DNA from: Burkholderia multivorans ATCC BAA-247
GTDB lineage: Bacteria; Pseudomonadota; Gammaproteobacteria; Burkholderiales; Burkholderiaceae
DNA length: 64,000 nucleotides
Assembly (NCBI RefSeq): GCF_000959525.1
Contig: NZ_CP009832.1
Location: 1-64,000, forward strand
Reading direction: 5' to 3'
The notes under the pieces are model-generated. The model did not search any database and was not told the origin of the DNA. It saw only the letters and a list, made by a program, of their open reading frames with translations. This document shows, one piece after another, positions 21,141 through 26,252 of the stretch. The stretch's first letter is position 1. Each line of letters opens with the position of its first letter. Both the position numbers and the translations under genes were made by a program.

Positions 21141-24100
21141 ATGACTGCATCCCTCCCCCTTCGCGCGAACGCGCATGCCGCGACGCGTCGGGCCGGCGTC
21201 GGCTTGTGCGCGGCTGCCGGCATGCCGGGCCGGCCGCCCGTACCGAGATCGGTCTGCTCCGCGCTGATCGCCGCGATCCTCGCGCCGTTGCCCGCGGTCG
21301 CGCAGGTCGTCAACAACCCGCAGTACGCGATCGGCGAGCACGTCGAGATCGCGGCCGGCGATTACGCGACCGTCAACTACGATTCGGTGCTGAACGTCAG
21401 CGACGGCGGCTCGATGACATCGGCGGGCCCCGTGCGCGTGTTTTCGAAGGGCAACGGCGCGATGGGCCTGTCCGTGGAGGGCCCCGGCTCGCGCATCGAA
21501 CTGGGCGACAGCCAGGTGCACACGACCGGAAATTCGGCCTACGGTCTGTACCTGTTCAACGGCAGCGGCTTGCCCGACGGTGCCAGCGCGCGGCTCGACA
21601 ACACGACCATCAATACGCTCGACGCCCACGGCGCGGGCGTGCGCATGTACGGCACCGGCAACCGGCTCGACATGACCGGCGGCTCGATCGACACGCTCGG
21701 CCAGGAGGCATACGGCATCTACCTCGGCCCGGGCCCGGGCGCATCGGTTTCGGTCGCCGACACGCGGATCCGCACCGTCGGCGCGTACGCGCACGGCCTG
21801 TCGTCCGATTCGGACGGCAACCATGCGACGCTCGAACGGGTCGACGTCACCGCGGAGGGCACGGAGTCGTCGGCGATCAACCAGATCGGCGAGAACACGA
21901 TCTCGGTTACCGACTCGACGCTGCGCACCAACGGGTTCCTCGCTCCGGGCGTGAACCTGCGCGAAGGCGCGCTGACGATGGCGCGCACCGACGTGATCAC
22001 GACCGGCGAAAGCTCGCACGGCCTCTATGCGTCGCGCGAGCTGGTGCTCGGCGCGCTCAGCGCGCAGCTCGACGTCGCCGACTCGCGCGTCACCACGCAC
22101 GGCCTCGGCGCAGCCGGCGCGATCGCGCGGGACGGCGCGGAGGTGTCGGTCGCCCGCAGCAGCATCGACACGCACGGCGACAGGGCGATCGGCGTGCTGT
22201 CGGTGCGCGACGACTCCGTCGCGAGCGTCGTCGACAGCACGATCACCACGAACGGCGCCCGCGCGCGCGGCGTGCAGGCAAGCTACGGCGGCCTGGTCGA
22301 GCTCGTGAACACGGCGGTGCGCACCGAGGGCGAGCACGCGGCCGGCGCCGGCCTGTTCAACGGCGAACTGCACGTCGAAGGCGGCTCGATCGTCAGCGCG
22401 CAAGGCAGCGCGATCGAAGCGACCGCCGGCCTCGTGCGCGCCTCCGGCGGCGCACACATCGAGGGCGGCAACGGCACGCTGCTCGCCGTCGCGGCCAAGG
22501 CCGGCGAGCCGGTGCATCTCCTGCTCGACAACGCGACCGCGCGCGGCAATATCGTCAACGTGCCGGCCGAGGACGGCACCCCGACGCCCGTAGTCACGAA
22601 CGTCGCGCTATCGCGCGGCGCGGCGTGGGAAGGCGCGACGCAGGCCGTCGGCGCGGTGTCGATGCGGGACGGCAGCCAGTGGACCGTCACCGGCGATTCC
22701 GCCGTGCAAGGCGTCAAGCTCGATCGGTCCACGATTGCGTTCGCCGCGCCGTCCGGCGGCGCACACAAGACGCTGGTGATCCACGGCGACTATGCGGCGC
22801 AGGACGGCAGGGTCGTGCTCAATACCGTATACGGCGACGATCTCGCGCCGAGCGACAAGCTCGTGATCGACGGCGGACACGCGTCGGGCAACACCGCGCT
22901 CGTCCTGAAGCGCACGAGCGGCGACGGCGCGGCGACGACGGTCGGCATCCCGCTCGTCGAAACCCGCAACGGCGGCACCACGGAGGCGGCCGCATTCGCG
23001 CTCGACGCCGCGTCCGACGGCTATCGCAAGGATTTCGGCACGATCTCCGCAGGCGGTTACGACTACATGCTGACGCGCGGCGGCGCGTCCGGCCACGCGG
23101 ACGATTGGTACCTCGTGTCCGCGGCCAAGCCGGCGCCGCCTGAGCCGCCCACGCCGCCTGCACCGCCGCAGCCGGTCGAACCGGAAACCGTGCCGCCGAA
23201 GCCCGAAGTCGTGCCGCCGCCGCCCGTGCGCGCGATCGCGCCGGAACCCGACGCCTATCTCGCGAACGCGGACGCCGCGATCCTGATGCCGATCCATACG
23301 CTGCACGAGCGCAGCGATCAGACGCTGCGCGCCGAGACCGACGAGAACGCGCGCGACGGCGCCGTATGGCTGCGCGCCCAAGGGCAGTCCACGTCGCTCG
23401 GCGGCGGCAACGGCAGCGGCGGCCGCAGCGTCAGCGGCAACGGTCGTCTGCTTCACCTCGGGGCGGACATGTTCCGGCTCGAAGACGGCCGCGGCGGCAG
23501 CTTCAGGATCGGCGCGATGGGGCTGTACGCGAGCGCGACGAGCTGGTCGACGCGCACGTTGTGGAATCCGGTCGCGCAACGTTATATGCCCGCCACGGCG
23601 CGCGGCAGCATCGACGGCTACAACGCCGGCCTGTACGCGACCTGGTACGGCAACCGCGACATCCTGACCGGGCCTCATGTCGATACGTGGCTGATGTTCG
23701 GCGCATACAGCAATCGCATCGGCGGCAGCCTGCCGGGCGACAGCTACCGGTCGCGCACGATCACCGCATCGGTCGAAGGCGGCTATGCGTTCGGCGTGTA
23801 CGACGACGGCCGTTCGCGCTTTTTCGTCGAACCGGCCGCCCAGATCGTCTATGCGAACTACCAGGCGAAGGGCCACGATTCGCCGGGCGGCTACATCGGC
23901 GTGCAGCGTTCGAACGACGTGCTCGCACGCATCGGCGTGCGCGTGCATGGCGTCACGCCGATCTCGGCGTCGCAGGCGCTGCGCCCGTTCATCGAGGCCA
24001 ACTGGTGGCACGGGCCGGGATCGCACCGGCTGAGCGTCGACGGCAACCCGTTCGAGCTGCGCATGCCGCGCGATCGCGCGGAGTTCAAGCTCGGCGCGAC

Positions 24101-24212
24101 CGGCCAGCTCACGCGCAACCTGTCCGTGTCGGCGAGCGTCGGCGTCGACTCGAACTTCTCGAACTACGCGACGGTGAAGGGGCAGCTCGCCGCGAAGTAT
24201 CGCTGGCGATGA
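21141..24212 (+). CDS. Autotransporter with beta-helix passenger (type Va secretion)
   Basis: 1023 residues. A long N-terminal segment ends in a signal-peptide-like core (SVCSALIAAILAPLPAVAQ, to about residue 55). The passenger (about 56-640) contains some 12 repeats of 24-32 residues with consensus x-T-x-G-x-x-A-x-G-hydrophobic between residues 125 and 420, predicting a right-handed beta-helix. A Pro/Glu-rich linker (PPEPPTPPAPPQPVEPE) precedes the C-terminal barrel of about 280 residues (DGAVWLRAQGQ ... GADMFRLEDGRGGSFRIGAMG), which ends KYRWR, near the aromatic terminal signature of autotransporter barrels. No protease or known adhesin motif was found. It resembles the pertactin/AIDA-type family. 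Confidence 0.88.
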   Translation: MTASLPLRANAHAATRRAGVGLCAAAGMPGRPPVPRSVCSALIAAILAPLPAVAQVVNNPQYAIGEHVEIAAGDYATVNYDSVLNVSDGGSMTSAGPVRVFSKGNGAMGLSVEGPGSRIELGDSQVHTTGNSAYGLYLFNGSGLPDGASARLDNTTINTLDAHGAGVRMYGTGNRLDMTGGSIDTLGQEAYGIYLGPGPGASVSVADTRIRTVGAYAHGLSSDSDGNHATLERVDVTAEGTESSAINQIGENTISVTDSTLRTNGFLAPGVNLREGALTMARTDVITTGESSHGLYASRELVLGALSAQLDVADSRVTTHGLGAAGAIARDGAEVSVARSSIDTHGDRAIGVLSVRDDSVASVVDSTITTNGARARGVQASYGGLVELVNTAVRTEGEHAAGAGLFNGELHVEGGSIVSAQGSAIEATAGLVRASGGAHIEGGNGTLLAVAAKAGEPVHLLLDNATARGNIVNVPAEDGTPTPVVTNVALSRGAAWEGATQAVGAVSMRDGSQWTVTGDSAVQGVKLDRSTIAFAAPSGGAHKTLVIHGDYAAQDGRVVLNTVYGDDLAPSDKLVIDGGHASGNTALVLKRTSGDGAATTVGIPLVETRNGGTTEAAAFALDAASDGYRKDFGTISAGGYDYMLTRGGASGHADDWYLVSAAKPAPPEPPTPPAPPQPVEPETVPPKPEVVPPPPVRAIAPEPDAYLANADAAILMPIHTLHERSDQTLRAETDENARDGAVWLRAQGQSTSLGGGNGSGGRSVSGNGRLLHLGADMFRLEDGRGGSFRIGAMGLYASATSWSTRTLWNPVAQRYMPATARGSIDGYNAGLYATWYGNRDILTGPHVDTWLMFGAYSNRIGGSLPGDSYRSRTITASVEGGYAFGVYDDGRSRFFVEPAAQIVYANYQAKGHDSPGGYIGVQRSNDVLARIGVRVHGVTPISASQALRPFIEANWWHGPGSHRLSVDGNPFELRMPRDRAEFKLGATGQLTRNLSVSASVGVDSNFSNYATVKGQLAAKYRWR

Positions 24213-24285
24213 CACGCGGGCGGCCCGCCGCCGCCGCGGCCGTCGATGCCGCGGCGGCGGCGCTTCCCGCCCCGACAATTTCCGC

Positions 24286-24291
24286 TATACT
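24286..24291 (+). promoter_or_regulatory. Candidate -10 element for the metX leader transcript
   Basis: TATACT (one mismatch from consensus) about 35 bases upstream of the riboswitch P1 stem, a fitting distance for the transcription start of the leader. The matching -35 position (24263-24268, CTTCCC) is poor. Confidence 0.4.
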
Positions 24292-24325
24292 CTGCCGACT
24301 GCCGCCACCTGGGCGGCATGTCGGA

Positions 24326-24438
24326 AGCGCGCCGATTTGCTGACTCGATTGCGGGCGCGCGAACCGGCCGGGGCGTCGATGCATCGATGCGTCGTTCCCC
24401 GGCGGTTCACTACAAATGCGGCTAAAGAGGTCGTCAGC
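24326..24438 (+). ncRNA. SAM-II-type riboswitch aptamer with an inserted hairpin
   Basis: Matches SAM-II (metA/SAM-alpha class) feature by feature: P1 5' strand GCGCGC (24327-24332), the conserved GATTTG (24334-24339), ATTGC (24348-24352), P1 3' strand GCGCGC (24355-24360), then ACAAATGCGGCTAAAGAGG (24412-24430) carrying the invariant AAAT and GCTAAA. GCTGAC (24339-24344) can pair with GTCAGC (24433-24438) as the pseudoknot stem. Between P1 and the AAAT segment lies an extra strong hairpin (GAACC-G-GCCGGGG 24361-24373 with CCCCGGC-GGTTC 24397-24408). SAM-II aptamers bind S-adenosylmethionine and repress methionine genes; metX starts 63 bases after the aptamer. Confidence 0.82.
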
Positions 24439-24501
24439 CGCGCATCTTCGACTCCGCGCATCGCCGACACCGTTTAGCCGCCCAGTCATAAGGCGGAACG
24501 A
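24439..24501 (+). promoter_or_regulatory. Predicted expression platform between the SAM-II aptamer and metX
   Basis: TTTAGCCG (24473-24480) is the exact reverse complement of the aptamer segment CGGCTAAA (24419-24426), with GGT (24429-24431) and ACC (24469-24471) adding three pairs. CCGCC (24478-24482), overlapping the first element, pairs with GGCGG (24492-24496) of the metX ribosome binding site AAGGCGG. The two pairings exclude each other. With SAM bound, GCTAAA is held in the aptamer and the ribosome site would be hidden; without SAM, GCTAAA pairs downstream and frees it. Confidence 0.6.
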
Positions 24502-25647
24502 ATGGAATCGATCGGCATCGTCGCTCCACAGACCATGCACTTCGCCGAACCGCTGCGCTTGCAAAGCGGCAGCGTGATCGGCAACTATCAGCTCGTCGTC
24601 GAGACTTACGGCGAGCTCAACGCCGCGCGCTCGAACGCGGTGCTCGTCTGCCACGCGCTCAACGCGTCGCATCACGTCGCCGGCGTCTACGCGGACGATC
24701 CGCGCAGCACCGGCTGGTGGGACAACATGGTCGGCCCCGGCAAGCCGCTCGACACCAACCGCTTCTTCGTGATCGGCGTGAACAACCTCGGCTCGTGCTT
24801 CGGCTCGACCGGCCCGATGAGCATCGACCCGTCGACCGGCAAGCCGTACGGTGCGCGCTTTCCGGTCGTCACCGTCGAAGACTGGGTACACGCGCAGGCG
24901 CGCGTCGCCGACGCGTTCGGCATCGAACGCTTCGCCGCGGTGATGGGCGGCAGCCTCGGCGGCATGCAGGCGCTCGCGTGGAGCCTGATGTATCCGGAGC
25001 GCGTCGCGCACTGCATCGACATCGCGTCGACGCCGAAGCTGTCCGCGCAGAACATCGCGTTCAACGAGGTCGCGCGTTCGGCGATCCTGTCCGATCCGGA
25101 TTTCCACGGCGGTGACTACTACGCGCACGGCGTGAAGCCGAAGCGCGGGCTGCGCGTCGCGCGGATGATCGGCCACATCACCTATCTGTCCGACGACGAC
25201 ATGGCCGAGAAATTCGGCCGCGCACTGCGCCGCGCGGACGGCGCGCTCGACGCGTACAACTTCAGCTTCGACGTCGAGTTCGAAGTCGAGTCGTACCTGC
25301 GCTATCAGGGCGACAAGTTCGCCGACTACTTCGACGCGAACACCTACCTGCTGATCACGCGCGCGCTCGATTACTTCGATCCGGCGAAGGCGTTCGACGG
25401 CAATCTGACGGCCGCGCTCGCGCACACGCAGGCGAAATACCTGATCGCGAGCTTCTCGACCGACTGGCGCTTCGCGCCCGCACGCTCGCGCGAAATCGTG
25501 AAGGCGCTGCTCGACAACAAGCGAACGGTCAGCTACGCGGAGATCGATGCGCCGCACGGCCACGACGCGTTCCTGCTCGACGACGCGCGCTATCACAACC
25601 TGATCCGCGCGTATTACGAACGAATCGCCAACGAGGTGGGTGCATGA
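24502..25647 (+). CDS. metX: Homoserine O-acyltransferase (MetX family)
   Basis: Acylates L-homoserine to start methionine synthesis. 381 residues, alpha/beta-hydrolase fold. Nucleophile Ser151 in [14 protein letters not shown], the acid Asp and base His near the C terminus ([17 protein letters not shown]), and the substrate motif LNASHHVAG. The family contains acetyl- and succinyl-transferases; Burkholderia-type MetX linked to metW is often a succinyltransferase in practice, so the acyl donor is left open. It overlaps metW by four bases (ATGA), and is preceded by a SAM-II-type riboswitch, which predicts repression by SAM. Confidence 0.95.
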
Positions 25648-26252
25648 ACCAGCAGGCGCTGAACTCCCTGTCCGCGCGCGCGGACTTCCGCGCGATCGCG
25701 CGCTGGGTCGAACCGCGCTCGACGGTGCTCGACCTCGGCTGCGGCGACGGCTCGCTGCTGTCGCTGCTGATGGAAGAACTCGACGTGACGGGCTACGGGA
25801 TCGAGCTGAACGACGCGGGCGTGCTCGCGAGCGCGAAGAACGGGATCAACGTGATCCAGCAGAACCTCGAGGACGGGCTGCGCCTGTTCGAGGATCACAG
25901 CTTCGATTTCGCGATCCTCTCGCAGACGCTGCAGACGATCCACCAGACGGCCGCGATCCTGCGCGAAACGGCACGCGTCGGCCGCGAATGCATCGTGTCG
26001 TTCCCGAACTTCGGCTACTGGGCGCACCGGCTGTCGGTGCTGCGCGGCCGGATGCCGGTGTCGAAATCGCTGCCGTACCAGTGGCACAACACGCCGAACG
26101 TGCGCGTGCTGACGATCAAGGATTTCGAGGCGCTCGCCCCGGAAGTCGGCATCACGATCCTCGACCGCGTCGTGCTGCACGAAGGTCAGCCGATTCGATG
26201 GGGAGCGAACTGGCGTGGTAGTCTTGCTGTCTACCGCGTCAAGCGCAGCTGA
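25644..26252 (+). CDS. metW: Methionine biosynthesis protein MetW
   Basis: 202 residues, class I SAM-dependent methyltransferase fold: [16 protein letters not shown] (motif I), [31 protein letters not shown] and the family signature EGLPNFGYW-like region [20 protein letters not shown]. MetW is needed with MetX for homoserine acylation in several proteobacteria; its own methyl acceptor is unknown. Translationally coupled to metX (ATGA overlap), so it shares the riboswitch-controlled transcript. Confidence 0.93.

Follow-up and report, generated by a model that had tools for sequence, protein, structure and literature searches.

Described SAM-II and metXZ leaders

Riboswitches of the SAM-II class (SAM_alpha, RF00521) have a compact minimal aptamer of under 70 nt (PMC1273637). 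A Bordetella sequence is among the SAM-II listed by Corbino et al. (PMC1273637), and SAM-II in betaproteobacteria, mostly with terminators, were noted in 2007 (PMC2258182). In the metA leader of S. meliloti, the Shine-Dalgarno (SD) sequence within the riboswitch is reported to be needed, though translation starts 74 nt downstream of that SD (PMC9373788). Thus, the premise of the initial annotation of the present locus, that known SAM-II place the ribosome site beside the conserved GCTAAA, does not hold as a rule, given the S. meliloti metA start and the many members described with terminators (PMC1273637, PMC2258182).

A second betaproteobacterial element, metXZ, was described by Leyn et al. 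2014 (PMC4239095). It precedes metXW or metZ and is present in 8/8 Burkholderia genomes. According to their description, it contains six conserved regions and a pseudoknot joining regions 1+4 to 2+6, it can adopt either of two conformations, and terminators are said to follow it consistently. The element is called new in that text, which reports SAM_alpha only in Rhizobiales and Rhodobacterales (PMC4239095). A literature search for metXZ together with riboswitch returned only Leyn et al. 2014; among all the papers found, most of them judged from the search listing, we noticed none that joins metXZ to SAM-II or describes a platform such as the one presented below. In B. thailandensis, the metX 5'UTR has been joined to lux as a translational fusion under a foreign promoter, for which 0.05 mM methionine is given as the OFF condition; regulation is said there to have been confirmed (unpublished data), and a plasmid with a fluoride riboswitch was unresponsive to methionine (PMC8814607). 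As reported, this fusion agrees with control after transcription initiation.

The metX leader of Burkholderia multivorans

The DNA analysed here, called the window, is the whole stretch of 64,000 nucleotides. Within it, 289 bases lie between an autotransporter gene (21141-24212) and metX (24502-25647). We propose that this leader is probably a SAM-II-class riboswitch with a hairpin inserted in its aptamer and an expression platform 36-70 bases past GCTAAA, which would switch translation of metXW. The features are as follows.

24286..24291, + strand: TATACT, a possible -10 box of the leader promoter, read by eye
24295..24324, + strand: hairpin 5' of the aptamer, predicted at -23.5 kcal/mol
24327..24333, + strand: 5' strand of P1, GCGCGCC, complementary to 24354-24360 with 7 G-C pairs possible
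24334..24352, + strand: L1, GATTTG...TTGC, putative P2 partner of the GCTAAA strand; conserved core, with the same letters in Rfam-positive loci (GATTTG at 24334-24339, ATTGC at 24348-24352)
24354..24360, + strand: 3' strand of P1, within GGGCGCGC (24353-24360)
24361..24408, + strand: hairpin of 48 nt inserted in the aptamer, absent from compact relatives
24414..24438, + strand: L3 and the 3' strand of candidate pseudoknot P2 (AAATGCGGCTAAAGAGGTCGTCAGC); permutation support for P2 weak
24463..24482, + strand: switching strand GCCGACACCGTTTAGCCGCC, predicted to pair with 24418-24435 (ON) or with the start region (OFF)
24478..24482, + strand: CCGCC, the anti-ribosome-site part of the switching strand, which pairs with GGCGG at 24492-24496
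24490..24496, + strand: AAGGCGG, SD-like, the probable ribosome site of metX
24500..24505, + strand: GAATGG around the start codon, pairing with 24470-24475 in the predicted OFF fold
24502..25647, + strand: metX, 381 aa, ATG at 24502; ORF named MetX by NCBIfam
25644..26252, + strand: metW, 202 aa, overlapping the end of metX; ORF named MetW by NCBIfam

The strings named in the initial annotation are all in place, among them AAATGCGGCTAAA at 24414-24426 and TTTAGCCG at 24473-24480, and its spacing of 75 bases between GCTAAA and the metX ATG is correct. A TAG at 24475-24477 is in frame with metX. Direct occlusion of a nearby start was ruled out for the window, since no ATG, GTG or TTG lies shortly after the GAGG of the aptamer. 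A consensus scan of the leader returned no σ70 promoter pair; TATACT is also present 5' of P1 in the inspected leaders of genus g1, to which the window belongs, and in several of those of genus g10. The upstream hairpin (24295-24324) has a similar counterpart in four g1 leaders inspected and was not seen in the inspected leaders of g10 and g20. The g1 leaders resemble locus L182 of B. guangdongensis. The 3' strand of the aptamer could also form a local hairpin, GCGGCT...AGCCGC (24418-24441), which on the minus strand is terminator-like with a T-rich tail and could stop antisense transcription arriving from the metX side.

The MetX protein scores 692.6 bits against a cut-off of 560 in the NCBIfam model for homoserine O-succinyltransferase MetX, and thus the enzyme may use succinyl-CoA; it also exceeds the cut-off of one acetyltransferase model. 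In one genome of the genus, the metX start has a partial second copy (G053:C1:3661227-3661373), 96% identical across residues 1-49, some 3.9 kb upstream of the complete gene.

Relationship of the aptamer to SAM-II

At the Rfam gathering score, the 64-kb window yields only a tRNA, and a search of the whole genome (6.32 Mb, 3 contigs) with RF00521 gave 0 matches. A permissive Rfam scan of 24220-24600 returned nine matches up to E=10, of which SAM_alpha had the lowest E value (0.2) and the other eight were chance-like. The initial annotation had proposed a hit to the Rfam model as a check, and this did not materialize: SAM_alpha reaches 16.7 bits at the leader, under the gathering cut-off of 36. 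The alignment to RF00521 fits P1, GATTTG and TTGC but is lost beyond them, as 48 bases (24361-24408) part P1 from the rest of the aptamer. Thus, the Rfam model apparently misses the element because of a hairpin inside the aptamer that the initial annotation had not described. This insert also accounts for the length of the aptamer (24327-24438), 112 nt, which is above that of minimal SAM-II. When the arms of the basal stem of the insert were swapped between genera, the own partner was better in 96 of 112 distinct rows (-10.7 kcal/mol for own versus -7.9 for foreign partners). The hairpin is absent from the compact relatives compared.

Relatives of the leader provide the link to SAM-II. A gathering-score scan of 14 related loci found five that exceed the RF00521 cut-off, all before metX and all without the insert (Zeimonas arvi, a Lautropia, Rubrivivax gelatinosus, an Aquabacterium and one betaproteobacterium); the nine that fail are four with a longer gap (L167, L171, L172, L192) and five compact loci. 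A permissive scan (E<=1) of 12 other relatives' loci, compact ones included, gave no match. Among 13 Rfam-positive loci, collected with a pattern that required GATTT, TTGC and GCTAA and left the letters 5' of GCTAA free, the invariant letters near this motif are A (-9), AAAT (-7 to -4), C (-2) and the whole of GCTAAA. Every position from -10 to +9 that is invariant in these loci is kept in the window, as are GATTTG and TTGC. The P1 strands GCGCC/GGGCGC occur in 13/13 of these loci, eight of which were found without a P1 pattern. The genes downstream in the window, metX and metW, are those expected of SAM-II (methionine/SAM synthesis). Given the insert-free Rfam-positive series and the shared invariant letters, membership of the leader in SAM-II is very likely despite the missed score; judged from these sequence comparisons, we regard the assignment made in the initial annotation as highly probable.

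The class is also more widespread than that annotation had assumed. It had called SAM-II mainly alphaproteobacterial; at E<=0.001, RF00521 matches 65 of 150 genomes of the window's own order, that of Burkholderia, and 26 of them exceed the cut-off. None of the four listed genomes of the window's own family matches, a further 65 match-free genomes standing outside that listing. A gapped pattern of the core with the window's spacing has one site in the 6.3-Mb genome, with 0 for a reversed-pattern control, and the same pattern with compact spacing has no site in the genome.

By itself, the stretch 24322-24520 does not fold with unusual energy (z -1.87, 7/200 shuffles as low). Folding and permutation give P1 and P2 poor direct support. 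P1 has probability 0 in the full-length fold, and its letters hardly vary among leaders, leaving covariation uninformative. For P2, own partners average -4.06 kcal/mol versus -3.58 for permuted ones (sd 0.14, 136 distinct pairs); for 107 named pairs, the values are -3.59 and -3.32 (sd 0.15), inside the permuted range.

Distribution of the leader among relatives

From the window's taxonomic family, 192 metX leaders were collected, 120 of these regions being hand-picked among the best matches listed and the other 72 fetched directly, part of them from 30 chosen genomes. A core of GCGCC-GATTTG...TTGC-GGGCG, with GCTAAA downstream at 48 to 145 bases from GCGCC, fits 181/192; the 11 outside this regular expression are ten from g2, g12, g18, g19 and g23, plus L278. 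In the latter, from g10, the element can be recognized by eye with an altered P1 (CGCCCC, GGACGCG) and a shortened switching strand; it is a natural variant. Five genera, g1, g10, g13, g20 and g25, are treated as the core genera and supply 143 leaders, 117 of them distinct; all leader rows are related by descent.

Named genomes were scanned with GCGCCGATTTGN{5,11}TTGCGGGCGC, which gave at least 119 stretches. GCTAAA lies downstream in 118 of the 119 listed, and the exception ends 28 bases after the start of the motif. A MetX match is present downstream of 54 of these 118 listed loci, the genes at the other 64 being outside this count. The distance from motif to GCTAAA is at most 46 bases, i.e., there is no such insert, in 93/118; loci with longer distances, among the matches listed, include Burkholderia, Paraburkholderia, Caballeronia, Cupriavidus and Pandoraea. 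Four loci of Halomonas and Billgrantia (L137, L176, L197, L211) have the same core with a gap of 69-78 bases and then a terminator-like hairpin, with no MetX match behind it.

A proposed distal, two-state expression platform

In the proposed mechanism, the strand GCTAAAGAGGTC would be held in pseudoknot P2 when SAM is bound, and the switching strand GCCGACACCGTTTAGCCGCC would fold onto the ribosome site and start codon, leaving metXW untranslated. Without SAM, GCCGACACCGTTTAGCCGCC would pair with CGGCTAAAGAGGTCGTC, the OFF hairpin could not form, and metXW would be translated. The switching strand would thus take the place of L1, with which the GCTAAA strand would pair inside the aptamer.

Predicted folds of the window fit these two states. 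With the platform folded by itself to represent the SAM-bound state, the sequestor CCGCC-GGCGG has a probability of 0.96-1.0, and an outer helix, CCGTTT-GAATGG, includes the start codon. When the aptamer strand is present, the antisequestor CGGCTAAA-TTTAGCCG has a probability of 0.77-1.0, and that of the sequestor drops to 0.00 (full leader: 0.01). The earlier proposal that the two pairings exclude each other is thus borne out in prediction. Its further statement that the ribosome site is free without SAM was too strong: the OFF helix is indeed lost, but the G letters of the site remain paired in a weaker hairpin in the predicted apo fold. Calculated as a plain duplex, pairing with the aptamer strand amounts to -20.0 kcal/mol for the switching strand and to -9.6 for L1. 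Because the antisequestor is so stable, SAM would probably have to act during transcription, before the switching strand appears.

Comparison of the leaders lends this platform support. The letters TTTAGC follow the element in 126 of the 143 core-genus leaders, TCTAGC in 16 more and TCTGGC in L090, so that, one-letter variants included, the switching strand is kept in 143/143; the chance level for TTTAGC, from shuffles, is a mean of 2.25 and a maximum of 5. The two complementarities pointed out in the initial annotation, between the downstream strand and the GCTAAA strand and between the overlapping strand and the ribosome site, are present in the sequence and persist among relatives. In the 117 distinct core leaders, the antisequestor pairs in 1036/1053 cells (98.4%; 700/700 for its second part), the sequestor CCGCC-GGCGG in 566/584 (96.9%) and the start-codon helix in 676/702, compared with 17-70% when partners were slid by 1-3 bases as a control.

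Two-sided covariation of these pairings, proposed as a check in the initial annotation, is weak between genera. Changes in the core leaders are one-sided, and 17 leaders have an A-C mismatch in the antisequestor. Swaps of arms between genera give the antisequestor little support, with the own arm better in 47/72 cases (-17.0 versus -16.7 kcal/mol); for the sequestor, the own arm is better in 51/83 (-17.7 versus -17.3), and the outcome is negative in g7, g11, g15 and g17. To the eye, some genera do show joint changes, as in g16 with GCTAAAGCGG, CCGACGCTTTAGCCACC and GGTGG, a visual rather than a statistical observation. The reverse complement of the L1 7-mer is found downstream in 4/118 listed named loci versus 0.55 in shuffles, too few to build on.

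The duplex of aptamer strand and downstream region was also compared with shuffles and is stronger in the core genera. Its mean z is -2.2 in g1, -2.3 in g10, -2.4 in g13, -1.8 in g20 and -2.6 in g25, and at most 10/200 shuffles are as good for 29/40, 23/29, 3/3, 17/32 and 10/10 leaders, respectively. The letters differ in g7, g11, g15, g16 and g17; mean z there ranges from -1.5 to -3.5 and 9/19 leaders are at that level, although in g15 a reversed-strand control is equally strong (-2.1). Mean z is -0.6 to 0.3 in g3, g5, g8, g21, g22 and g24.

Accessibility of the ribosome site was calculated in two ways. Its mean unpaired probability barely differs between the states (0.54 vs 0.51 in g1, 0.55 vs 0.54 in the window), and by this measure at most 2/30 shuffles were as good in only 39/133 leaders. 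The predicted free-energy cost of opening the region -13 to +3 rises upon removal of the aptamer strand in 132 of 133 distinct leaders, in line with the earlier prediction of an OFF state when that strand is held. On average, it goes up by 6.2 to 7.7 kcal/mol in the core genera versus 0.8 to 1.5 with shuffled spacers, and at most 1/25 shuffles are as good in 123/133 leaders; this measure was picked after the unpaired-probability measure had failed, and the result should be weighed accordingly. The set excludes g8 (three leaders, no antisequestor), the terminator genera g3, g5, g21, g22 and g24, and L104 of g17. The opening cost of the OFF state alone beats all but at most 1/25 shuffles in only 36/133 leaders, and thus the signal lies in the difference between states.

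Alternative readings and the step controlled

The main alternative, which we consider improbable, concerns the aptamer's own GAGG (24427-24430), which could be a distant standby ribosome site that SAM hides in P2, with the downstream pairings secondary. The gap of 75 bases between GCTAAA and ATG in the window is similar to the S. meliloti metA arrangement, in which the riboswitch SD is described as needed for a start 74 nt downstream (PMC9373788). However, a local SD-like AAGGCGG precedes metX, and the GG of GAGG pairs with the CC of the switching strand in 117/117 leaders, so that GAGG would be hidden in the proposed ON state. The conserved switching strand is also left unexplained by a standby site.

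It is less probable still that the switch acts on transcription, through Rho or a terminator without a clear U-run, rather than on translation. Leyn et al. place terminators consistently after metXZ (PMC4239095), and a hairpin with a T-run follows the element in 14/14 leaders of g3, g5, g21, g22 and g24, in 3/10 of g11, and in 38/54 named metX loci among the matches listed. However, the scan recognized such a structure in 0/115 distinct leaders of the five core genera, and in the window the terminator scan found none on the + strand. Thus, the published statement is not borne out by our scan for the Burkholderia group. Nor did any of the 12 leaders of g7, g8, g15, g16 and g17 contain a hairpin with a T-run. 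Moreover, the predicted OFF hairpin contains the ribosome site and start codon, which argues against transcription as the controlled step.

That the core resembles SAM-II and yet responds to another ligand (e.g., SAH or another methionine-cycle compound) or is a protein site is very unlikely: the score of 16.7 bits would suit it, but the invariant letters around GCTAAA of Rfam-positive relatives are kept, the gene is also metX, and methionine is described as the OFF condition for the B. thailandensis leader (PMC8814607). A SAM-II-class switch of translation is our preferred reading. The comparisons above show that the element is conserved, pairs consistently, has fitting predicted energetics and lacks recognizable terminators in the core genera; from these we infer that SAM is the ligand, that translation is controlled and that the choice falls while the RNA is transcribed.

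Terminators and start sites across the lineage

The same aptamer seems to be wired in three ways: to terminators, to a hairpin at a remote start site, and to a near ATG. In the third arrangement, found in L149, L170, L193 and L224, an ATG lies 9-12 bases past GCTAAA (by position, frame aside), which resembles direct occlusion. TTTAGC is present downstream in 21/118 listed named loci, compared with a shuffled mean of 3.3 and maximum of 8, and sometimes lies inside a terminator (L313, L318), suggesting a competing strand that predates the Burkholderia platform. In these two compact relatives, the terminator-loop TTTAGC adjoins a stretch like the L1 reverse complement, as though capture of both P2 strands were possible.

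A broader idea, which we offer tentatively and to which we give somewhat less than an even chance, is that betaproteobacterial SAM-II share a downstream strand that mimics L1 as a competitor for the GCTAAA strand. This strand would be part of a terminator in many lineages and, in the Burkholderia group, of a hairpin at the ribosome site and start codon; a transcriptional switch would thus have become a translational one with the aptamer core unchanged, and metXZ would thereby be solved as SAM-II.

Significance and comparison with known systems

The element is real and well conserved, and with its inserted hairpin and distal translational platform it is very probably a new version of a known riboswitch class; SAM-II itself is known, it is the wiring that looks new, and the element is not categorically new. 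An orphan regulatory RNA of betaproteobacteria, metXZ, gains a likely ligand, and a reason is offered why the standard SAM-II model overlooks the element in Burkholderia. In addition, the leaders form a natural series in which one small aptamer would be wired to direct occlusion, terminators or a remote start-site hairpin, making expression-platform evolution directly testable.

The window element appears to be the published metXZ element, matched by description rather than letter by letter. The metXW genes and the Burkholderia lineage are common to both, conserved blocks with a putative pseudoknot and two conformations agree as far as the published text goes, and with gene, lineage and pairing scheme all fitting the text on metXZ, the two are very probably the same. 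Unlike in our reading, metXZ is not assigned to SAM-II in that text and a terminator is proposed, whereas the scan found none in the Burkholderia group.

With SAM-II as modelled in RF00521, the window shares the P1 strands, GATTTG...TTGC, AAAT.C, GCTAAA and metX as target. It differs in the 48-nt hairpin between P1 and L3, with a score below the cut-off, and in its ribosome site, which is 64-70 bases past GCTAAA and outside P2. A SAM-II variant with enlarged loops, SAM-II long loops (RF01726), is listed by that name for Bacteroidetes and marine sequences in a table of Weinberg et al. 2010 (PMC2864571), and RF01726 was absent from the nine matches that 24220-24600 gave up to E=10. The S. meliloti metA leader is like the switch proposed for the window in that SAM-II controls a start codon about 75 bases downstream (PMC9373788). 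As described, metA requires the riboswitch SD and has a terminator in between, whereas in the window a local ribosome site would be alternately masked by the switching strand.
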